From NCBI GenBank assembly GCA_001644045.1, contig LUUF01000087.1, forward strand, positions 1-64,000: 64,000 nt of DNA, read 5' to 3'. A program made the translations under genes and the position numbers. Below are positions 5,211-24,372 of this stretch, one piece after another (the first letter of the stretch is position 1; every line of letters begins with the position of its first letter). This DNA is from Methylomonas methanica (GTDB taxonomy: Bacteria; Pseudomonadota; Gammaproteobacteria; Methylococcales; Methylomonadaceae). Below the pieces are notes generated by a model, which saw only the letters and a program-made list of their open reading frames with translations, searched no databases and was not told the origin of the DNA.

Positions 5211-6314
5211 CTACATTCGCATCGGCATAACAATAAATTTAAACAAAGGCTGTTCGGGTTCTTCGATGAAACAGCTGCTGGCATTGCCGGCGATGGTCAG
5301 CACCGCCATTTCGGAATCGAGATTGGATACCGCATCCAGCATATATTGGGAATTAAACGAAATACTTAACGGCTCGCCTTGATAATCGATGATCAATTCT
5401 TCCTCGGCCTCGTCATGCTCGGGATTGTGCGTACTCAATTTCAGCAAATCGCCGGAAATATCGAAAGTTACGCCTTTGTACTTTTCGTTGGACAAAATCG
5501 CCACCCTGGTTAACGCATCTCTCAAGACCTGTTTTTGAATCAACAACGGACTCATAAAGCTTTGATTGAACACTTTACTGAAATCCGGAAACTTCGCATC
5601 GATCAGTTTGGACGAGAACACCACATCCTTGTAATAAATCCGGATGTTGTTGCTGGAAAACTGGATATTCAATTCGGCGTCTGCATCGTCCAACAAGCGG
5701 CTTAGTTCCTGTACCGCTTTTCTAGGCATGATGATGCGGGCTTCATAACCGGTCGCTTGTCCTATATCATCTTCATAAATCGACAAACGATGACCATCGG
5801 AAGCTACCAGCTTCAGCCTGGAATTACTTACGTTCAGCAACAAGCCGTTCAAGTAATAGCGCACATCCTGATTGGCCATGCAAAACACGGTTTTATCTAG
5901 CGCCTTCTTGAATTTGCCGGCATTCAGCAAAAAGCTATGCTCAAACTCGGACTCGTTGAACTCCGGATAATGTTCGGCCGGCAAGGTACTCAAAGAAAAT
6001 CGGCTACGGCCGGAGACGACCTTGACCTTATCGTCTTGCAATTCGAAATGAATTTCCGCACCGTTCGGTAATAAGCGGCAAATATCCAGAAATTTTCTAG
6101 CGGGAACCGTGATTTCCCCGGAATGAGATATTGATTCGATATTTAACTTAGCAACAATCTGAATTTCCGTATCCGTACCGGTCATCACCAACTGATCGTC
6201 GCTGGCCTGCAACAGCACATTGGACAGAATCGGCATGGTCTGCCGTTTCTCGATAACGCTGACGATTTGCTGCAACGGCGGCAAAATTTGATCTCTGCTA
6301 ATAATAAATTTCAT
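5211..6314 (-). CDS. dnaN: DNA polymerase III beta sliding clamp
   Basis: Ring-shaped processivity clamp of the replicative polymerase. The 367-residue protein (E. coli 366) has three repeated clamp folds. It begins MKFIISRDQILPPLQQIVSVIEKRQTMPIL (quoted in part: MKFIISRDQI) and ends with the typical C-terminal MPMRM. It lies downstream of dnaA across a 189-bp spacer that holds DnaA boxes and AT-rich DNA, and just before recF. Confidence 0.98.
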   Translation of the reverse strand: MKFIISRDQILPPLQQIVSVIEKRQTMPILSNVLLQASDDQLVMTGTDTEIQIVAKLNIESISHSGEITVPARKFLDICRLLPNGAEIHFELQDDKVKVVSGRSRFSLSTLPAEHYPEFNESEFEHSFLLNAGKFKKALDKTVFCMANQDVRYYLNGLLLNVSNSRLKLVASDGHRLSIYEDDIGQATGYEARIIMPRKAVQELSRLLDDADAELNIQFSSNNIRIYYKDVVFSSKLIDAKFPDFSKVFNQSFMSPLLIQKQVLRDALTRVAILSNEKYKGVTFDISGDLLKLSTHNPEHDEAEEELIIDYQGEPLSISFNSQYMLDAVSNLDSEMAVLTIAGNASSCFIEEPEQPLFKFIVMPMRM

Positions 6315-6530
6315 ATAAATATCTTTTATATATTGTTACTACTATGTAAACAAAAAGCTGTGGAAAACCGAAATTACCTAATTTAAATCAAAATCTTAGC
6401 ATGTATCAAACATTGTTGTCGGATACCGTTTTAGCTTGTATGGGGTTTGTGGATAACCTAAAGGACAAATTTTCGGCACACTTTATCCACAACTTACACG
6501 CAATTAATGCGATAAGGTTCTCAACAGGTT
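6314..6530. other. Origin-like module A (dnaA-dnaN spacer): DnaA boxes, AT-rich tract, DnaA-trios
   Basis: The module contains TATAAATATCTTT (6314-6326), an AT-rich tract, DnaA-trio repeats on the minus strand (TAGTAGTAA, 6336-6344) and the DnaA box TTTTCCACA (minus strand, 6359-6367). Two perfect boxes follow: TTATCCACA on minus at 6448-6456 and on plus at 6483-6491. Last comes AGGTTCTCAACAG near 6515-6527, inside the dnaA 3' end. A box followed by trios in an AT-rich stretch is the arrangement of a basal unwinding element. The same plan recurs at 13985-14215. Confidence 0.75.
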
Positions 6531-7820
6531 TTTGTAATCTTCCGCCATCTTCACATCATCGTCTTTCAACTCAGCCACGCGCTTACAGGCATTGATGACC
6601 GTGGTGTGATCGCGTCCGCCAAAGGCATCGCCTATTTCCGGATAGCTATGCGATGTCAATTCCCTGGCCAGACACATGGCCACTTGTCGGGGCCGGGTGA
6701 TGGATTGTTTGCGGTTTTTTGAGGACAAATCCGCCACCCTGATCTTGAAATACTCGGCCACGGTCTTCTGGATGTTATCGATGCTGATTAACTTGTCTTG
6801 CAAGCTGATCAAATCGTGCAAAGCTTCCTTGGTAAATTCCAGGGTGATGTCGCGGCCGGTAAATTGTGAATTGGCCACCACCCGCCGTAACGCACCTTCA
6901 AGATCTCTAACATTGGAAGGTATGCGTTTGGCAATGAAGAAAGCGATGTCTTGATCCAGATCCACACCGACCTGCATGGCCTTTTTAATCAAGATAGCGG
7001 CACGGGTTTCCAGATCCGGTGGTTCAATCGCGACCGGCAAACCCCAACCGAAGCGCGATTTCAAACGGTCTTCCAGACCATCGATTTCCTTGGGATATTT
7101 ATCGCAGGTCAAAACCACCTGATGTTTGTTATCCAGCAGATTGTTAAAGGTGTGGAAAAACTCTTCCTGCGAACGTTCCTTACCGGCCAGAAACTGGATG
7201 TCGTCCATCAATAAAATATCGATGCTGCGGTAGTACTCTTTAAATTGGTTGATACTGTTTTGTTGCAGCGCCTTGACCATGTCCTGCACGAACTTCTCGG
7301 AATGCAGATAGACAATATTGGCATCGGGTTTTTTCAACAGCACCGCGTTGCCGATGGCATGCATCAAGTGGGTTTTACCCAGACCGGAACTGCCGTAGAT
7401 AAACAGCGGGTTGTAAACTTTGCCGATATTGTCGGAAACCGTTACCGAAGCGGCTCTGGCCAATTGGTTGGATTTACCTTCCACAAAGCTCTCGAAGGTG
7501 AAGGCTTTGTTTAAAAAATTGGGTTGATTCTTCTTTTGTGTAGGACTCTTGCTGAGGATGGGCGCTTTGATGGCCGGCGATTTTTTGCTGCCGATTTCAA
7601 ACTGCACCGCCAAGGTCGCATTGGAAAACTCGTTGACCGCGTCTTCGATGACCGCGAAAAAATGCTGTTTGATATGGTCGATAATAAACCGGTTGGGAGC
7701 GAGCAATTTTAACTGGCTGTCGGTTTCCACTGCTTGCAGCGGCCTGATCCAGGTGCTGAAATCGGTACTGGGAATTTCATGTTCAAGCTTGGCCAGGCAG
7801 TTGTTCCAAATCACACTCAT
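6504..7820 (-). CDS. dnaA: Chromosomal replication initiator DnaA
   Basis: AAA+ initiator that binds DnaA boxes and melts the origin. The product is about 438 residues. It has an N-terminal DnaB-interacting domain ([25 protein letters not shown], quoted in part: [12 protein letters not shown]), a linker (about 80-110), the AAA+ core with Walker [10 protein letters not shown] and Walker [11 protein letters not shown], and the DNA-binding signature [13 protein letters not shown] near the C-terminus. The ATG at 7820 fits the usual family start; an ATG two codons earlier (7826) is the alternative. No strong Shine-Dalgarno is visible for either. Confidence 0.98.
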
Positions 7821-7911
7821 CGGCATTCAAGAAGGGGCTTAGAAAGGCCTTGCATGATACCACAGTGACCGCTTAGGGCTTGACTCTATGGACGTTATCA
7901 GAAAAGAATGA

Positions 7912-8556
<645 letters not shown>

Positions 8557-8570
8557 CACTAACAACACCT

Positions 8571-9008
8571 ATGAAAACTAGAAAAACTTCTTATCTATTT
8601 GCAACGTTGATTGTTTCGGCGTTGACCATTGCCGGCTGCTCCAGCGATGAAGCGGAAACCCCCAAAACCAGCGCCGGCACTGCCAAAAAAGCGGTACACA
8701 GAGCCGATACCGGCGAAGCCACCGAACCCGAGAAACGCCAGTTCGAAAAAGAATTTTCCGCCAAATGTGTAGCGCGGGAACTGAAAAATTCGAATAACAA
8801 AGACGTCGACGAAAAACGTTTTCAAGAAAGCTGCGACTGCATCGCCGAACACATCATGAAAGATCTGTCGGAAATCGATGCGGAGAAGTACCTGGAAGAC
8901 CATGAGGACACGCAAACCTTGGGTATCAAATTCGATGCTGCGGCTTATTTCTGTTTGCAAAATAAACCTCAACCCAAAGGACCGCAGTTATTTGGCAAGC
9001 CACAATAA
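8571..9008 (+). CDS. Predicted lipoprotein of unknown function
   Basis: The 145-residue product begins with a basic, hydrophobic leader ending in the lipobox LTIAGC (acylated Cys near residue 23), so it should be a membrane-anchored lipoprotein. The mature part is charged and low in complexity (Ala/Lys/Glu). It has four conserved-looking Cys in its second half (SAKCVAREL, SCDCIAEH, YFCLQ), which could form disulfides. I do not recognise the family. It follows gmk by 14 bases. Confidence 0.75.
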   Translation: MKTRKTSYLFATLIVSALTIAGCSSDEAETPKTSAGTAKKAVHRADTGEATEPEKRQFEKEFSAKCVARELKNSNNKDVDEKRFQESCDCIAEHIMKDLSEIDAEKYLEDHEDTQTLGIKFDAAAYFCLQNKPQPKGPQLFGKPQ

Positions 9009-9012
9009 TAAC

Positions 9013-9073
9013 GTAGGTTGGGTTAGCCGCCAGGCGTAACCCAACACGTCGGCCTTAAATGTTGGGTTACCCT
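9013..9073. repeat. Dispersed palindrome of the GGTTGGGTTA family
   Basis: Between the lipoprotein gene and hemL, TTGGGTTA (9018-9025) faces TAACCCAA (9037-9044) around a GC-rich loop. It is preceded by GTAGG, and a third half-copy, TGTTGGGTTA, lies near 9060. Related elements occur at 33500-33601 and 45281-45355. The position between genes and the stem-loop form resemble REP-type elements; it may also act as a transcript end. Confidence 0.65.
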
Positions 9074-9137
9074 TTATCGAGCTTTTATGCCAAAAGGGTA
9101 AACTCAACCTTCACGATTTTCGCCATCCTTCATACCC

Positions 9138-10418
9138 ATGACCCAATCTTCCGAATTATTTTCTCAAGCCAAGCAATACATTCCCGGCGGCGTAAACTCG
9201 CCGGTGCGTTCTTTCAGCGGCGTCGGCGGTACGCCGGTGTATTTCGACCGCGCAGCCGGCGCTTACGTTTACGACAGCGAAGGCAAGCGTTACATCGATT
9301 ATGTCGGTTCCTGGGGGCCAATGATTTTGGGCCACGCGCATCCGGCCGTGATCGACGCCGTTAAGCTCAGCGCCGAAAAGGGTTTGAGCTTCGGTGCGCC
9401 CACCGAGATCGAAACGCTGATGGCACAAACAGTCTGCGCACTGCTGTCGTCGATAGAAATGGTGCGCATGGTCAGCTCCGGCACCGAAGCCACCATGAGC
9501 GCATTGCGCTTAGCGCGCGGTTACACAGGCCGCGACAAGATCGTTAAATTCGAAGGTTGCTACCACGGCCATTCCGATTCCTTGTTGGTCAAGGCCGGAT
9601 CCGGCGCGTTGACTTTCGGCGTACCCAGTTCCCCCGGCGTGCCTGCCTCGGTCGCCTCCGACACCATCACCCTGACTTACAACGACAGCGATGCAGTACG
9701 CAGCACCTTTGCCGAACTGGGCGACAAGATCGCCTGCATCATCGTCGAACCGGTGGCCGGCAACATGAACTGCATCCCACCGGAACCCGGCTTCTTACAA
9801 ACCCTGCGCGAGGTCTGCGACCAATACGGCAGCGTGCTGATTTTCGATGAAGTGATGACCGGCTTCCGCGTCGGTTTGCAAGGTGCGCAAGGTCTGTATG
9901 GGATCAAACCGGATTTGACCACGCTAGGTAAAATCATCGGCGGTGGCCTGCCGGTCGGCGCTTTCGGCGGCAGCCGCAAGATTATGGAATATTTGGCGCC
10001 GCTGGGTCCTGTGTATCAAGCCGGCACCTTGTCCGGCTGCCCGGTGGCGATGGCCGCAGGCTTAAAAACCCTGGAACTGATCAACCAACCCGGTTTCTAC
10101 GAGGCCCTGACCGCCAAGACCGCAACGCTGTTACAAGGTTTGCAAGCCGCCGCCGATCAGGCCGGCATCGCTTTTACCACCAACCAGGTCGGCGGCATGT
10201 TCGGTTTATTCTTCAGCAATGAAAAATCGGTCAGCCGTTTTTCCCAAGTGATGGCTTGCGATGTCGACCGTTTCAAACGCTTTTTTCATGCGATGTTGGA
10301 TAAAGGCTTTTATCTGGCTCCATCGGCTTTTGAAGCTGGGTTTGTTTCTGCCGCGCATACGGATGAGGATTTGCTGGCTACTGTGGATGCGGCAGCTGAC
10401 GTGTTTAAGGGGTTGTGA
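9138..10418 (+). CDS. hemL: Glutamate-1-semialdehyde 2,1-aminomutase
   Basis: PLP enzyme of the C5 tetrapyrrole pathway that turns glutamate-1-semialdehyde into 5-aminolevulinate. The 426 residues are the standard length. Family motifs include [13 protein letters not shown] at the N-terminus, [14 protein letters not shown], the cofactor-binding [12 protein letters not shown], and the PLP lysine in [18 protein letters not shown]. The start at 9138 gives [12 protein letters not shown], as in orthologues. It stands alone between a palindromic repeat and an unknown gene. Confidence 0.97.
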
Positions 10419-10446
10419 TGATATTTGGAAATTTTTTAACTACTTA

Positions 10447-10983
10447 ATGGGTACCAAAATTTATTCGCAATACGACCTTGATCCTCAGCTTTCCTCTGCG
10501 TTGAAATCAATCTACGAGGAGGTAATGTGGCTTTCTGCGCGCCCCAACGTTACTCCAGGGCGTGCGCGTGCTTGGTACACCCACATCATGGCCGAGGCCG
10601 TAAAACGAAAGTTGCGTCGCTTCACTGGCAAAGTCTCCGAGATGACTGCCACACAAAACGATGGCCCGCTAATGCTTGAGCATTTCAAACGTATTCAAAC
10701 GACGCTTACTGCACTTGTTGAACAACACCGCGCCGAACAACTCAACGACCCGGATGCTTTTATCAAAACGTTAGTTGACTATGAGCAAGTTCACATAGTC
10801 ACTCGCGATGAGAACTACGCCGCCATGCGTGCCAAAGGGAATTATAACCAAGCAGGTATCGTACTTTTTCCGTGGGAAGAACTTTCTGAAGGGCAGCGTA
10901 CTGAGTTGTGGAACAAAATGCTTCGAGGGAAGGTAGCAAACGCAGGCGCTTTCAAACCCCAACGTATAACCTGCACAACATAG
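10447..10983 (+). CDS. Uncharacterised protein, 178 residues
   Basis: The frame is open from inside hemL, but the first sensible start after the hemL stop is the ATG at 10447 (MGTKIYSQYDLDPQL). The product has no signal peptide or membrane segment. It is rich in Arg/Lys and helix-forming residues, with a Trp/Arg-rich early part (VMWLSARPNVTPGRARAWY) and a C-terminal IVLFPWEELSEGQR. I do not recognise the family. No clear ribosome-binding site is visible. Codon use is less GC-rich than hemL and the gene sits next to palindromic repeats and a toxin-antitoxin pair, so it may be accessory DNA. Confidence 0.6.
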   Translation: MGTKIYSQYDLDPQLSSALKSIYEEVMWLSARPNVTPGRARAWYTHIMAEAVKRKLRRFTGKVSEMTATQNDGPLMLEHFKRIQTTLTALVEQHRAEQLNDPDAFIKTLVDYEQVHIVTRDENYAAMRAKGNYNQAGIVLFPWEELSEGQRTELWNKMLRGKVANAGAFKPQRITCTT

Positions 10984-11067
10984 GCCGCGTAGCTCCGATT
11001 AGCGAAGCGTAATCGGAGGCATGAAAGCCTCCCATTCGTGCGGTTACGCTCCGCTAACCGCACCTAC
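10981..11067. repeat. Double hairpin repeat between genes
   Basis: Two consecutive perfect stems lie here: CTCCGATTA/TAATCGGAG (10993-11001 with 11010-11018, loop GCGAAGCG) and GTGCGGTTA/TAACCGCAC (11038-11046 with 11055-11063). Both have the plan stem-TTA-GC-rich loop-TAA-stem and the cluster ends in CCTAC, like the other palindromes in this window. The remaining DNA to 11317 shows no gene. Confidence 0.65.
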
Positions 11068-11317
11068 CAATAACGATTTCCCCGTTTTTACGCGGTGCTT
11101 GGGCAAGTGACAGCCAACAAGCCCGGTAGGTCAGGATTCGCGATAGCGTTCCCTGACAACATGGTTCGATTTGTCACGCAGCCGCTCGGCAACTGCTCTT
11201 GCGTTGCCCTACCTCCTGCATCCATACAGTCGTATCGAGCCAACGTAACCTACGAAATTTTTTCATAAAGACCGCCCCAATCGCCCCTTGCCTGTAGTTA
11301 TATCCCTGTTTTCGTCT

Positions 11318-11341
11318 TATAATCGTACGGTATTTCCGTAC
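11318..11341 (+). promoter_or_regulatory. Promoter and autoregulatory operator of yefM-yoeB
   Basis: A consensus TATAAT -10 (11318-11323) is followed immediately by the perfect palindrome GTACGG-TATTT-CCGTAC (11325-11341), 14 bases before the antitoxin GTG. A palindrome overlapping the transcription start is where YefM/YoeB complexes usually repress their own operon. The -35 is weak (TAGTTA at 11295-11300). Confidence 0.75.
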
Positions 11342-11355
11342 AGGAGAAAGCCACC

Positions 11356-11628
11356 GTGGAAACCGTCAGCGTCAATCAATTCCGAGACAATTTAAAAAAC
11401 TACGTCGAGCAAGTAGTCGATAACCACGAACCTTTGAAAGTCACACGCCGAGCAGGTGATGCGTTTGTCGTGATCAGCGCGGACGATTGGGAACGGGAGC
11501 AGGAAACGCTTTATGTTTTGCAAAACGCCGGCTTGATGGCGCAAATCAGCGCTTCCACCGCAACGCACGCTCAACAAAAAGGTTATCAACCCAGCGACGA
11601 ACAACTGCATGAAATCGTTGGTATTTGA
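11356..11628 (+). CDS. yefM: Antitoxin of the YefM/Phd family
   Basis: Neutralises the adjacent YoeB-type toxin and represses the operon. The 90-residue protein has the Phd/YefM DNA-binding N-terminus (METVSVNQFRDNLKNYVEQV) and the ITRRAGDAFVVISADDWE-like core, with a variable C-terminal arm that should wrap the toxin. It starts at a GTG (11356) with AGGAGAAAG upstream. Its 3' end overlaps the toxin gene by 20 bases, typical translational coupling. Confidence 0.92.
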   Translation: METVSVNQFRDNLKNYVEQVVDNHEPLKVTRRAGDAFVVISADDWEREQETLYVLQNAGLMAQISASTATHAQQKGYQPSDEQLHEIVGI

Positions 11629-11878
11629 AGGTAACACGTGGGCGATATACGAAGAGCTAAGAGACAAAGACAAGGTTTTGCACAAAGCGTTGTGCAAATT
11701 GCTCCGGGAAATGTTGCGTGGCGATCCTGCAAGCGGTTTGGGTAAACCGGAACCACTCAGGCATAATCTTTCCGGCCTTTGGTCCAGGCGGATTTCCCAC
11801 AAAGATCGGCTGATTTATAAGTTCGACAACAACTACATTTATATATTTGCTATCGGCGGCCATTATGAACAGTATTGA
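11609..11878 (+). CDS. yoeB: YoeB-family endoribonuclease toxin
   Basis: RelE-superfamily toxin that cuts mRNA at the ribosomal A site. The 89 residues contain the family core GLGKPEPLRHNLSGLWSRRI and a C-terminal GGHYEQY. Residues equivalent to the YoeB catalytic set are present: Glu48, Arg67 and His85. Tyr86 follows His85 as in E. coli YoeB. The gene overlaps its antitoxin by 20 bases. All catalytic positions look intact, so the toxin is probably active. Confidence 0.93.
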   Translation: MKSLVFEGNTWAIYEELRDKDKVLHKALCKLLREMLRGDPASGLGKPEPLRHNLSGLWSRRISHKDRLIYKFDNNYIYIFAIGGHYEQY

Positions 11879-11936
11879 CAATGCCGTGTAGGTTCGCTTC
11901 CATCCTGGCTATAAAACACCGATTGGAGCCAAACAT

Positions 11937-12575
11937 ATGAATATTTCAGTTAACAACAACGAACCGCATTTTCCAGCCTACCCCCAAAATCACCCGACCC
12001 GGAATTTCAAATCAACCCAGCTTCTGATTTTCGCGGCTTGTTTATTGTCCTCAGTTCCGGGCTCAAGCCATGCCGATTTTGTTACCCATCCGCTAACTGA
12101 AGCGCCGTCTTCACAATCACCGGAACCGGCAACGCCGGCCGTACCGGAAGCCGCCGATACCAGCCAGCCTAACCAAGCCGAGATTGACTTTAACGAGCAA
12201 TTTGGCGAAAAGAAATTGGGTACTTGCAGCATGACCTACAAGCTGGAGGGGTTTTCGCTGGCGTATAAACAATACGATGGGACCGGGGAAATAACCTGCC
12301 GCAACGGTCAAAAAGCCAAGGTGGCGCTGTCGTCAAAAAGCATCGGCTTTACGATCGGTTATTCGGTGATAGAGGGAGAAGCCTATTTCACCGACGTCAA
12401 ATATATCAGCGAGCTATTTGGTGATTATGTTTCGCTGGGTAACCACTTTGGGTTTAAAAACTCGGTGGATAGACAAGTATTGACCCGAGGCGAAATTTCC
12501 TTGGTTATGCTGGGCAAAGGCAAGGGGTTTGATATTGGCTTTACCATTGGCGATTTATCCATCAAACCGCGTTAA
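11937..12575 (+). CDS. Predicted exported protein of unknown function
   Basis: The 212-residue frame has a hydrophobic segment at about 28-46 (LLIFAACLLSSVPGSSHA) that looks like a signal peptide preceded by an unusually long polar N-terminus; a later start near Asn23 would make it conventional, but no ATG is available there. A Pro/Ala/Ser-rich linker (about 50-80) leads to a globular domain with two Cys (GTCSMTY, EITCRNG) and Gly-rich beta-like sequence. I do not recognise it. Confidence 0.65.
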   Translation: MNISVNNNEPHFPAYPQNHPTRNFKSTQLLIFAACLLSSVPGSSHADFVTHPLTEAPSSQSPEPATPAVPEAADTSQPNQAEIDFNEQFGEKKLGTCSMTYKLEGFSLAYKQYDGTGEITCRNGQKAKVALSSKSIGFTIGYSVIEGEAYFTDVKYISELFGDYVSLGNHFGFKNSVDRQVLTRGEISLVMLGKGKGFDIGFTIGDLSIKPR

Positions 12576-12605
12576 CCCGCTCGTTTTAGTCACAAAGAGG
12601 TTCTG

Positions 12606-13946
12606 ATGGATGAGATATGGATGGCGCTGGCTTCACTACCGCTAGCGGCGTTGCTTGGCTATGGCGTTTGCGCTTGGCTTAGCGGTAAACGGCATCGCGA
12701 GTTGCAAAGTCAGTTGGAGCAACAACAACAGCAACTCCAACAGCAGGCAGTCAAATTGGCGGTGGCCGAGGAGCGCACGCTATTGTTGACTCAAAAGGAA
12801 ACCGAACTGCAAAGTTTGCAACACCAGCTGCTGGCATTGAAAACCGAGAATGCCGAACTTAATACTCGCCAGCAGGAACAGCATAAACACAACGAAGAGA
12901 AGATCCGTTTACTGCAAGATGCGGAAAATCAGTTAAAAACCCAGTTCGAGAATCTGGCCCACAGGATTTTCGAGGAACGCGGCAAGCAGTTCGCCGAACA
13001 CAACAAAACCAGCATCGAAAGTTTAGTCGCGCCGCTTAAGCAACAACTCGGCGAATTCAAAAACCGCGTCGAAAGCGTTTACGACAATGAAACCAAGGAT
13101 CGTATTTCCTTGCGAGAGGAAATCGTCTCGCTCCGCCGCGACACCGCCAAAATGAATCAGGAAGCGCTGAACCTGACCCGTGCGTTAAAAGGCGATCATA
13201 AAACCCAGGGCAATTGGGGTGAGATGATCCTGGAAAAAGTCTTGGAACAATCCGGCTTGCGCAAAGGCATCGAATACGAAACCCAAGGCGCATTCCGCGA
13301 CAGCGATAATCGGTTGTTCAAACCCGATGTGATCGTCCGCCTGCCGGAAAACAAGGATGTGATCATCGATTCCAAAGTCTCGTTGCTGGCTTACGAGCGC
13401 TATTGCTCGGCGGAAGACGACAACCAGCGCATCGAAGCCTTGAAACAACATACCGAAGCGATCAGAAACCATATCAAAGGCTTAAGCAACAAAGACTACT
13501 CCAGTTTGAAAAGCCTAAGGTCTTTGGATTTTGTGTTGCTGTTCATGCCTATTGAAGCAGCCTTCATGGCCGCTTTCCAAGCCGACGAAAAGCTGTTCAA
13601 TGACGCTTTCGAACACAAGATAGTCGTCGTTACCCCCACCACGTTACTGGCAACTTTGCGTACCGTACAAAACATCTGGCGTTACGAACAGCAAAACGAA
13701 AACGCCCGTTTGATCGCGGATAAGGCCGGCGGTTTGTACGACAAGATCCGAGGTTTTGTGGAGGATATTGAAAAACTGGGCAACCAACTCAGCACCGTAC
13801 AAAAAACCTACGACGGCATCGTCAACAAACTCAGTAGCGGTAGCGGCAATTTGCTCCGTCAAGCCAGCGCGTTTGAAGAATTGGGGGTTAAGGTCAAAAA
13901 AAAACTCCCCAAAAGCCTAACCGAACAAATGTCACCGGAGGATTGA
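12606..13946 (+). CDS. rmuC: DNA recombination protein RmuC
   Basis: Predicted nuclease-like protein that limits recombination at inverted repeats. The 446 residues start with a membrane-anchoring helix (about 5-25), followed by a long Gln/Glu-rich coiled coil (about 30-120). The conserved RmuC domain then carries KTQGNWGEMILEKVLEQSGL and PDVIVRLPENKDVIIDSKVSL, where the Asp-Asp-Ser-Lys stretch resembles a PD-(D/E)xK core. It ends just before a second origin-like cluster. Confidence 0.95.
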   Translation: MDEIWMALASLPLAALLGYGVCAWLSGKRHRELQSQLEQQQQQLQQQAVKLAVAEERTLLLTQKETELQSLQHQLLALKTENAELNTRQQEQHKHNEEKIRLLQDAENQLKTQFENLAHRIFEERGKQFAEHNKTSIESLVAPLKQQLGEFKNRVESVYDNETKDRISLREEIVSLRRDTAKMNQEALNLTRALKGDHKTQGNWGEMILEKVLEQSGLRKGIEYETQGAFRDSDNRLFKPDVIVRLPENKDVIIDSKVSLLAYERYCSAEDDNQRIEALKQHTEAIRNHIKGLSNKDYSSLKSLRSLDFVLLFMPIEAAFMAAFQADEKLFNDAFEHKIVVVTPTTLLATLRTVQNIWRYEQQNENARLIADKAGGLYDKIRGFVEDIEKLGNQLSTVQKTYDGIVNKLSSGSGNLLRQASAFEELGVKVKKKLPKSLTEQMSPED

Positions 13947-13984
13947 TGTTTCCGTGATCTGAAATGTTCAGGTCCAGTCGCTAT

Positions 13985-14215
13985 AGTAATAATAACTTTA
14001 TAAATATCTTTAGATTATTATTACTATTAGTGCTGAAAAATCTGTGGAAAACCCTGTTTATACATTTTAATTCATGGCCTTATTAAAAATTAATGCTGTT
14101 GGACATCAGACTTTTTGCTTGTTCACAGGCTGGGGATAACCGAAAAGCGGATTTTTTTAGACAACTTATCCACAAATTCCTAGGTATTTAACCAACAGGT
14201 TTTCAACAGCAGCCC
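13985..14215. other. Origin-like module B: AT-rich unwinding region, DnaA-trios and DnaA boxes
   Basis: The 420-bp gap after rmuC contains TATAAATATCTTT (13999-14011) and five perfect DnaA-trios on the minus strand, TAATAGTAATAATAA (14015-14029). DnaA boxes follow: TTTTCCACA (minus, 14043-14051), near-matches TTGTTCACA (14119-14127) and TTATCCCCA (minus, 14131-14139), and a perfect TTATCCACA (14166-14174). AGGTTTTCAACAG ends the set (14197-14209). Spacings match module A (6314-6530) to within one base, so the two are homologous. Its non-coding setting and longer trio run make it a strong oriC candidate. Confidence 0.75.
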
Positions 14216-22686: not shown

Positions 22687-24372
22687 TTATTCGTAAGATA
22701 CTTTCCAAGTTAAAACAGCTTGAGTTGCAAGCCACGCTTGATAGTCATTTAAGTTCTGCAAATTCCATTGATTGTATGATGCTACTTTCACGGCGAGCGG
22801 GTAATGAGAATTCATGTAAGCTATTTTTTTATCCTCAAAACTTGAACGGCCTAACTGATCTTTCTCAAGTAAAATGACGTTGCCTAATCGGTCCTGAATA
22901 TCGTTGATTCCACCGCCAAAATAATTGTCCCAATTCTCATCAGGATTGTATGGACATATATGCTCTAATGTTGTTTTTGTATAATTTGTGTTGTGGCCTA
23001 GATAATATTCTATTTCAGATAATAAAAATCGAATTTTCTTCTCGCTGCGTCGACTGGGCATTTTATGAAACTCGAAAGCATTAAAGAAGGCATCGTCACT
23101 AGGATAAAGTTTTTTAAATATTTCGCTATTTTTTATATGACTTGCTCTGGTATAATCACGATTGTTAATTTTTATTGCTAATTGATTATAGGCTGTTTCT
23201 TGTTCATTTGGAGAGAAATGACATATAACGTTATATCGGATGGATAGCACATATATATATTTGGTGAGCTTTACGAACTCATCTGGAGAAAATCGATGAA
23301 ACGCGCTCATTAGGATAGTAAATGGTTGTTTTATATTGAATAAATCAAAGCCATCCAAATATTTTTTAGCTTCGCGATAATCTATTTCTTGATTTGCCCA
23401 CCAATCATCTTCAGGATTTAATAAAGATGCATATACTGGGGCATATATTCCTAAAGAACGTAGATAAGTATAAGCTTTTTCTGGAGTATCAGCCAGTTTT
23501 CTAACTGAAGAAAACAGCTCTCTCTTTTGTGATAAATTTGCCTGAAAATTGTGGTGATAGCGAATGAAGTCGGTGAAATTGCTTTCTCCTAATTGAGATA
23601 CGATCTCAGACCAACTTTCGTCAAGATCGTTCAGGTCTTGGTCGTCGACGTTATCATTTTTTGTAACAATAGAAAATATATAGTTTTTAAGCAAATCAGG
23701 AGTAGATAATTGTACGCCACGAGCATTTAATGTTTCAAAAACTTTATAAGCATTGAGATCATCCTGAACGACGATTTTAGTAAAAATCATTCCCGATGCA
23801 ACGCGTTCGATGAACTCAGCAATTTCTTGTCCGCTACCACCTGTTTTCTTTTCTTCAAAGAATTTGAAGCATCTATTTATCAGTTTATTGGTGTTGGTTT
23901 GTCCTCGTTTATTTGGTGCTTCCAAGTTATCGCATATCGCTTTGAAATTAACACTGTTATTTCGGTTTAGAGATAATTTACTATCCACTCTTAGGGAAAT
24001 TGGATTGGTTGATCCGATATAACGCTCTTTCAAAACTTTTAGTCTATGGTTGTTTTCATTTACTTCCTGCCCCTTGTTAATCAAGGTTTGAATGTTTTTC
24101 ATGGCAGCTAGTATAATTAATGACAAAGTTATCAGTCGCTGTTGACCATCTATAACCTCGAAATCATATTGTGCTTTACGCTGTAAAACGATATAGCCCA
24201 TATAATGAAATTGTTCTTCGACTATTGTTTCTATATCTGCCCATAAATCTTCCCACTGCTGCTTATCCCAGGCATAATCTCGTTGAAAGCGTGGTACTTG
24301 ATATTTTATACCATTGCCTATTAATTCTTGGAAGCTTTGATTTGTTGGCTCCATTAGCATAAAGGTTGCCAT
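22687..24372 (-). CDS. DUF262/DUF1524 protein, GmrSD-like restriction factor candidate
   Basis: The 561-residue protein has an N-terminal DUF262 domain (YQVPRFQRDYAWDKQQWEDL from about residue 24 and DGQQR at 75-79, the ParB-like nucleotide-handling motif). Its C-terminal DUF1524 HNH-type nuclease region has LEHICP and, further on, RLGNVILL. This combination is found in GmrSD-type IV enzymes that cut modified phage DNA and in related defence proteins. The gene is clearly more AT-rich than its neighbours ubiA and hldE and stands alone between housekeeping genes, suggesting acquisition. No partner or methylase is nearby. Confidence 0.85.
   Translation of the reverse strand: MATFMLMEPTNQSFQELIGNGIKYQVPRFQRDYAWDKQQWEDLWADIETIVEEQFHYMGYIVLQRKAQYDFEVIDGQQRLITLSLIILAAMKNIQTLINKGQEVNENNHRLKVLKERYIGSTNPISLRVDSKLSLNRNNSVNFKAICDNLEAPNKRGQTNTNKLINRCFKFFEEKKTGGSGQEIAEFIERVASGMIFTKIVVQDDLNAYKVFETLNARGVQLSTPDLLKNYIFSIVTKNDNVDDQDLNDLDESWSEIVSQLGESNFTDFIRYHHNFQANLSQKRELFSSVRKLADTPEKAYTYLRSLGIYAPVYASLLNPEDDWWANQEIDYREAKKYLDGFDLFNIKQPFTILMSAFHRFSPDEFVKLTKYIYVLSIRYNVICHFSPNEQETAYNQLAIKINNRDYTRASHIKNSEIFKKLYPSDDAFFNAFEFHKMPSRRSEKKIRFLLSEIEYYLGHNTNYTKTTLEHICPYNPDENWDNYFGGGINDIQDRLGNVILLEKDQLGRSSFEDKKIAYMNSHYPLAVKVASYNQWNLQNLNDYQAWLATQAVLTWKVSYE

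Follow-up and report, generated by a model that had tools for sequence, protein, structure and literature searches.

The rule in bacteria is one origin per chromosome, and the question raised by the locus described here is whether a single chromosome can carry, and perhaps use, two copies of the same oriC. The locus lies in Methylomonas methanica (assembly GCA_001644045.1, contig LUUF01000087.1), in a stretch of 64,000 nucleotides (nt), called the window below, on a contig of 83 kb from a genome of 5.02 Mb. The original prediction, made from the letters of the window, held that the spacer between dnaN and dnaA and the gap after rmuC contain two homologous origin-like modules about 7.7 kb apart, which would be either a copy and its source or the parts of a bipartite origin. 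We confirm the two homologous modules, here named A and B, and consider it probable that this is the chromosomal origin region of a member of the Methylococcales in which oriC is present as two paralogous complete units, each resembling an ordinary DnaA-dependent origin. A duplicated, twin oriC is the most likely reading of the sequence, a classical bipartite origin fits it poorly, and it is possible that the two units work as two origins. The features of the two modules are as follows.

Module A
6286..6529, plus strand: module A, a complete origin-like unit between dnaN and dnaA (whole-genome profile search: 146.7 bits, E 1.5e-42)
6314..6326, plus strand: AT-rich motif TATAAATATCTTT, belonging to the putative unwinding element
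6336..6344, minus strand: three DnaA-trios, reading TAGTAGTAA on that strand and spaced 14 nt from box 1
6359..6367, minus strand: box 1, TTTTCCACA, adjoining the trios
6386..6398, plus strand: IHF-like site AATCAAAATCTTA, 9/9 specified positions of the IHF consensus
6448..6456, minus strand: box 2, TTATCCACA, perfect
6483..6491, plus strand: box 3, TTATCCACA
6518..6526, plus strand: box 4, TTCTCAACA, weak, invariant across the ten genomes of the window's clade

Module B
13982..14210, plus strand: module B, the complete origin-like unit of the gap that follows rmuC (same search: 133.7 bits, E 1.5e-38)
13999..14011, plus strand: AT-rich motif TATAAATATCTTT, with TAGTAATAATAA ahead of it at 13984-13995
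14015..14029, minus strand: five DnaA-trios, TAATAGTAATAATAA on the minus strand
14043..14051, minus strand: box 1, TTTTCCACA
14070..14082, plus strand: IHF-like site ATTCATGGCCTTA, 7/9 positions
14131..14139, minus strand: box 2, TTATCCCCA, one mismatch
14166..14174, plus strand: box 3, TTATCCACA
14200..14208, plus strand: box 4, TTTTCAACA

Read from left to right, both modules open with an AT-rich stretch, followed by DnaA-trios and box 1 (all on the minus strand), an IHF-like site (scored against the IHF consensus), box 2 on the minus strand and boxes 3 and 4 on the plus strand. The trios stand 13-14 nt from box 1, the IHF-like site begins 27 nt and box 2 89 or 88 nt beyond box 1, box 3 follows box 2 after 35 nt and box 4 follows box 3 after 34-35 nt. 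Every element listed in the original prediction was found in its place and in the same order in both spacers, and the start-to-start distances it had given (45 and 44 nt from the AT motif to box 1, then 89 and 88, then 35 and 35) were reproduced. Two of its elements had to be redefined: the 'box-like GGATAACC' site was correctly located and proved to be a true minus-strand DnaA box, our box 2, and the shared motif AGGTT(C/T)TCAACAG was present as described and contains a fourth, weaker box, our box 4. Each module thus has the DnaA-box cluster of a bacterial oriC, with four boxes of which the fourth is weak, and in both an AT-rich putative unwinding element and trios lie beside a reverse-oriented R1-type box. 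The trios follow the consensus TA(G/A) (PMC6669920). In the unwinding part the A+T content is 86-88%, and the first trio lies 13-14 nt from box 1 in 29/29 copies of A and 33/34 copies of B from the genus. When the window was searched for the three-box geometry, it returned A, B and, overlapping A, a single reverse reading of that module; 20 mononucleotide-shuffled versions of the window gave 0.0 hits on average.

In B, inverted arms, TAGTAATAATAA and TTATTATTACTATTA (13984-13995 with 14015-14029), flank the AT-rich part. Module A overlaps dnaN in its initial codons and dnaA in its final ones, and the left inverted arm in A coincides with the initial dnaN codons, so these codons may double as origin sequence.

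Modules A and B align over their full length with a local alignment score of 78. Among 2000 dinucleotide shuffles the mean score was 20 and the maximum 37, and when the stretches between the motifs were shuffled 2000 times with the five shared motifs held in place the maximum was 59; none of the 2000 shuffles in either set reached 78. Because the score exceeds both sets, the resemblance is more than that of shared consensus boxes, as had been claimed, and an alignment no better than that of shuffled DNA is not what is found. That one module is a copy of the other is supported by this alignment and by the grouping of A and B copies in the genus tree described below.

To follow the pair in relatives we used a sequence profile trained on 30 modules, taken from 19 genomes of the genus. 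In the window's own genome A and B were the only two strong matches; the third-best (E 0.0047) overlapped A on the opposite strand. The sequence of module B as a query gave matches in 25/61 genomes, all within the genus. With the profile, two full-length modules were found in 30/37 genomes of the genus, 14 of these 30 lying outside the profile training set. Among the others, G010 has its second copy interrupted by a contig end, G032 and G019 have one intact and one degenerate module each, G001 and G030 show one module with contigs ending nearby, G007, a single contig, has one module only, and in G017, which is 77% complete, no module was matched. In other genera of the family, none of whose 65 genomes had been used for the profile, at least two non-overlapping full-length matches at E <= 1e-8 were present in 45/65 genomes (24/33 and 21/32), and the two-module state was seen in 15/23 of the other genera sampled. 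The expectation that relatives might carry only one of the two thus fails for most of them. Outside the family (f1 in our numbering), at most 12/74 genomes had two matches at E <= 1e-5, a count that keeps overlapping matches, includes three genomes of unassigned family and was obtained with a genus-built profile that is less sensitive there. In the f4 genomes compared (G039, G054, G057, G060) the match lies at least 75 kb from dnaA, and in genomes of f7 and f8 (G043, G048, G053, G056, G059) it lies inside the dnaA-dnaN spacer. A tandem module pair was also seen in the dnaA-dnaN spacer of G056, from another family of the order (L106, about 10055-10907); pairs there may have arisen independently.

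In a genus tree of 66 modules, A copies grouped with A and B copies with B, with 3 label changes compared to 22.4 in shuffles, and because the labels cluster in this way we take A and B to be old paralogues. An exception is G003, whose own A and B pair up, as expected from gene conversion. A single duplication for the whole family was tried as an explanation and rejected: in the family-wide tree (131 modules) the approximately unbiased (AU) test rejects both an all-B clade (p 0.0003) and an all-A clade (p 0.0025), while a single clade of all A and B copies of the genus is not rejected (p-AU 0.51). The B of the window is therefore not equated with the B of other genera; the pair would have arisen, or been homogenised, in the genus lineage, and for the family the rejected clades imply that pairs arose more than once or were homogenised within lineages. 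For the trees 11 of 146 profile matches were left out (six opposite-strand or overlapping, five short), and the family tree was built without the long branches of G020, G007 and G019.

Conservation within the copies follows the putative functional elements. All 29 copies of A examined in the genus have exactly three trios, and 32 of the 34 copies of B have three or more (five in 22/34); runs of at least three were met in 0.8-0.9% of shuffles. An IHF-like score of at least 8/9 near the fixed offset occurs in 23/29 copies of A and 19/34 of B, as against 2.2% and 1.4% of shuffles. The A set is without G005, G020 and G001-type extras, which were not among the copies picked by the three-box rule or listed by hand, and G032 and G019 contribute to the B set two modules that originally bore the label X. 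Across the ten-genome clade of the window the mean identity of A is 100% for box 1, 98% for box 2, 100% for box 3, 100% for the trios and 86% for the linker, and that of B is 100%, 98%, 100% and 98% for boxes 1 to 4, 92% for the trios, 82% for the AT-rich part and 67% for the linker, as measured over columns without gaps, with box 1 as the anchor, a procedure that lowers the figure for the linker. A evolves more slowly than B in this clade, and the DnaA sites of both copies appear to be under selection.

The original prediction had also proposed to locate the switch of GC skew, and this switch coincides with the module region in 3/4 relatives scanned gap-free. In G035 the cumulative minimum and the best change point both fall at about 3,267,000 (3,267,001), within 5 kb of tandem modules at 3,271,650-3,272,290; its dnaA lies 140 kb from dnaN, and the switch is not at dnaA. 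In G018 the best change point is at -5.0 kb relative to the contig join, between B (-7.1) and A (+1.5), with the cumulative minimum at -4.6 kb, and in G027 it is at -2.0 kb on the same scale, between B (-4.1) and A (+1.5). In sampled stretches of G032 the skew changes from mixed or negative values to mostly positive ones around 270-300 kb, at dnaN and its module and not at dnaA (position 1). The window's own cumulative minimum falls at 12,179, between the modules, on a contig that begins only 6 kb left of A.

The distance between the two modules is fluid. In the 30 genomes of the genus with two modules, A adjoins the start of dnaN and the position of module B varies: in 12/30 genomes B stands in tandem, 0.32-0.43 kb from A, and in 18/30 it is split off past the dnaA-gmk-hemL block, after rmuC, or in G026 after hemL, no rmuC being found at the split-module site of that genome. 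In the other genera 38 pairs on the same contig are 0.27-39.7 kb apart; 35 of them comprise 13 at <=0.5 kb, 7 at 1.5-4 kb and 15 at >5 kb (the largest 39.7 kb), and the remaining three lie 25.3 kb (G118), 24.7 kb (G146) and 9.3 kb (G149) apart across contig ends, if these are circular. Widely spaced modules occur in Candidatus Methylobacter oryzae (15.1 kb), G139 (24.5 kb) and G120 (39.7 kb). Where a genome had more than two matches the closest pair was taken, and 7/45 pairs lie on separate contigs. Short contigs bias these figures towards short distances; all 12 pairs on contigs >2 Mb are also within 39.7 kb. Some pairs of other genera are on opposite strands. The pair has thus been split and re-spaced repeatedly (0.27-39.7 kb), with both members kept in most species sampled. 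A six-protein species tree made by a quick method (without G030, and with G032 and G019, in which the one module upstream of dnaN is intact and A is degenerate, labelled tandem) places tandem lineages at the earliest branches of the genus, and the split state needs two changes; a tandem ancestor followed by two splits is the simplest reading.

Several tandem species have dnaA itself away from dnaN. The block dnaA-gmk-lipoprotein-hemL is removed from dnaN and the modules in L071, L122 and L124: the distance is about 97 kb in G012 and 140 kb in G035, and in G021 the block has a contig to itself apart from them. The dnaA of G002 lies about 45 kb off, measured across contig ends; these four genomes are natural separations of dnaA from its origin. 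In G172 the two modules flank dnaA. Flanks were inspected for 13 modules that other genera carry at a distance from dnaN, and 7 of them, from five genera (L326, L327, L354, L357, L362, L364, L365), have a POT-family peptide transporter gene on one side and a gene for a MoxR-type ATPase on the other (Pfam on 2 of 7, the rest by sequence likeness), with the transporter side only at L332 and the MoxR-type side only at L366. The B of the window is not at this site, which is a recurrent putative second origin locus unlike that of the window.

How such a unit would work can be proposed from its layout. DnaA would bind box 1 and load a filament onto the adjacent minus-strand trios, the filament would open the AT-rich element to the left of the trios, and a bend of the IHF type would bring boxes 2-4 near box 1. 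Both units would be able to unwind. At usual fork speeds the fork of the unit that fires first would copy its partner in about a minute, and since the modules lie within tens of kb the pair would act as one initiation locus, which would explain why their distance is variable and yet <40 kb. Given its longer trio array we would guess that module B is the more frequent unwinding site; A overlaps the start of dnaN and may control it. We hold only tentatively the further proposal that the family replicates its chromosomes from two origins of one oriC type, both of which fire, in different cells or in the same cell, each resetting the other by passive replication.

Several observations weigh against a twin oriC. 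G007, G019 and G032 are without a second intact copy and 20/65 genomes of other genera show fewer than two modules, so that the pair is not indispensable. Skew cannot tell A from B: the best change points of G018 and G027 stand between the two, and in G027 the cumulative minimum is at +3.1 kb, 1.6 kb beyond A. G011 has no skew switch at the modules, being mostly negative on both sides over 400 kb, possibly because its gyrB side has been rearranged. In the window the best single change point is at 51.5 kb, and the window alone is uninformative. The GC skew at 4-fold (third-position) sites of dnaA, gmk, hemL and rmuC, compared between split and tandem genomes, was dominated by gene-specific bias and did not discriminate A from B. 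The choice of copies by their box matches inflates box conservation, and the contrast of boxes with linkers is somewhat overstated; that of trios with linkers is unaffected, trios and AT-rich part having played no role in choosing copies. Finally, the IHF-like site of B in the window is a poor one, with 7/9 positions.

Some of these points suit a different account, which we regard as rather unlikely: that there is one working origin (B, or A) and a kept copy that titrates or reloads DnaA or controls dnaN/dnaA transcription. With its tie to the start of dnaN, its slower evolution than B and its three trios only, A would suit such a second, regulatory task, and some relatives live with one intact copy. 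The known elements of this kind, datA and DARS, consist of DnaA boxes plus an IHF site and have no unwinding element. A pure DnaA store needs none, yet both modules have conserved trios and AT-rich sequence, and each keeps its putative unwinding element. Pseudomonas aeruginosa, in which one of two autonomously replicating origins is essential (PMC4403523), offers a precedent on the other side. Still less do we expect the second module to be a decaying leftover, that is, a recent duplicate or a displaced old origin drifting away. The single intact copies in G007, G019 and G032 would agree with it, but the duplication is older than the genus radiation and the boxes stay intact while the linkers diverge, which makes this account very improbable.

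A bipartite origin, in which DnaA at both modules forms one looped complex needed to open one of them, we judge improbable. Modules 0.32-0.43 kb apart, as in 12/30 genomes of the genus, could be spanned by a single complex, and the modules that flank dnaA in G172 recall Bacillus and Helicobacter. The known cases, as described in PMC4285127, have two box clusters with the unwinding element in one of them and a total length of up to ~2 kb. In the modules studied here the putative unwinding element is present in both, with trio runs of at least three in 29/29 copies of A and 32/34 of B; the gap is 7.7 kb in the window and up to 39.7 kb in relatives, although tandem species do fall within the ~2 kb; and some genomes have the two modules in reversed relative orientation. 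Of the two interpretations first offered for the likeness of A and B, the copy stands, and the bipartite origin agrees poorly with an unwinding element in both halves and a gap of 7.7 kb. We therefore retain the duplicated oriC as the preferred reading.

In the window the minus strand carries gyrB-recF-dnaN-dnaA and the plus strand gmk, a lipoprotein gene, hemL and rmuC, the names gmk and hemL being given from sequence, without a family search. The genes around the modules are as follows.

5211..6314, minus strand: dnaN; one module adjoins its start in all 30 genomes of the genus with two modules
6504..7826, minus strand: dnaA
7942..13946, plus strand: the inter-module block besides dnaA, with gmk, the lipoprotein gene, hemL, a Phd-like antitoxin gene, small open reading frames and rmuC

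The DnaA of the window is closest, among the matches listed, to those of Candidatus Methylobacter oryzae (78%) and a Methylococcales metagenome-assembled genome (75%). SeqA was not found in the window's genome, in a search whose control in E. coli was positive. Pfam places a Phd/YefM-type antitoxin gene at 11356-11628, between hemL and rmuC; genes for MerT, a heavy-metal-associated (MerP-like) protein and a MerR regulator at 34-1302, at the contig end, which count as near the origin region because gyrB is their direct neighbour; and a GmrSD-type (DUF262) restriction endonuclease at 22687-24372, in a stretch with lower G+C that is ~8 kb away from module B.

It remains to compare the pair with known systems. 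The unit of the window has an IHF-like site and outward-facing boxes, as does oriC of E. coli, and is present twice on the chromosome, in all of which it is unlike the basal unwinding system of B. subtilis incC. It resembles that system in the box followed by a same-strand TA(G/A) trio run into AT-rich DNA (PMC6669920). With the bipartite oriC of Bacillus subtilis and Helicobacter pylori the pair shares two DnaA-box clusters near dnaA, which in at least one relative (G172) flank that gene as in those species. In Epsilonproteobacteria, however, unwinding is confined to oriC2 (PMC5043019) and the spacer is roughly one gene, whereas both methanotroph halves look capable of unwinding and their spacer ranges from 0.27 to 39.7 kb.

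Other gammaproteobacteria offer a likeness of a different kind. Pseudomonas aeruginosa reportedly has two autonomously replicating origins, an observation said to go back to Yee and Smith in 1990 and to Jiang in 2006. Like the methanotrophs it is a gammaproteobacterium with two origin-like segments, one of them possibly dominant (PMC4403523); unlike there, the copies in the window are clearly paralogous, share one layout and lie at a distance that is fluid between species. Of 64 gammaproteobacterial loci scanned, 6 had two or more separate weak profile matches, four of them from Pseudomonas/Halopseudomonas (L159, L187, L195, L196; E 1.5e-11 to 1.3e-3) and the others L182 and L133; in L196 the far match is between mnmG and mnmE. 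In naturally fused single-chromosome strains of Vibrio cholerae two origins share one natural chromosome, both being active in NSCV1 and one silenced in NSCV2, as a 2018 paper showed (PMC6284228). These are of unrelated types, oriC and the plasmid-type ori2, joined by chromosome fusion (PMC6284228), in contrast to the methanotroph pair, which is of the same oriC type, lies within 40 kb and recurs across a family.

The putative double origins of DoriC (Gao 2015, PMC4403523) are likewise two predicted oriCs per chromosome, and that 2015 opinion paper saw no evidence for two functional origins on one chromosome. We found no description of an oriC pair in this group in the literature searched, which mostly did not cover subscription journals and excluded supplements; as far as the searches show, two origins per chromosome are known in kind, and the recurrent, re-spaced pair of paralogous complete oriC units is undescribed. 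The DoriC cases come from isolated species, in which the origins are separated by 150-882 kb, or reflect a duplicated dnaA cluster (PMC4403523), while the methanotroph pair recurs in most sampled genera of one family, which keep what appear to be two complete paralogous oriC units. Because its natural variants change distance, order, orientation and the location of dnaA, they make it testable whether a bacterium can use two oriC copies and what sets the distance permitted between them.

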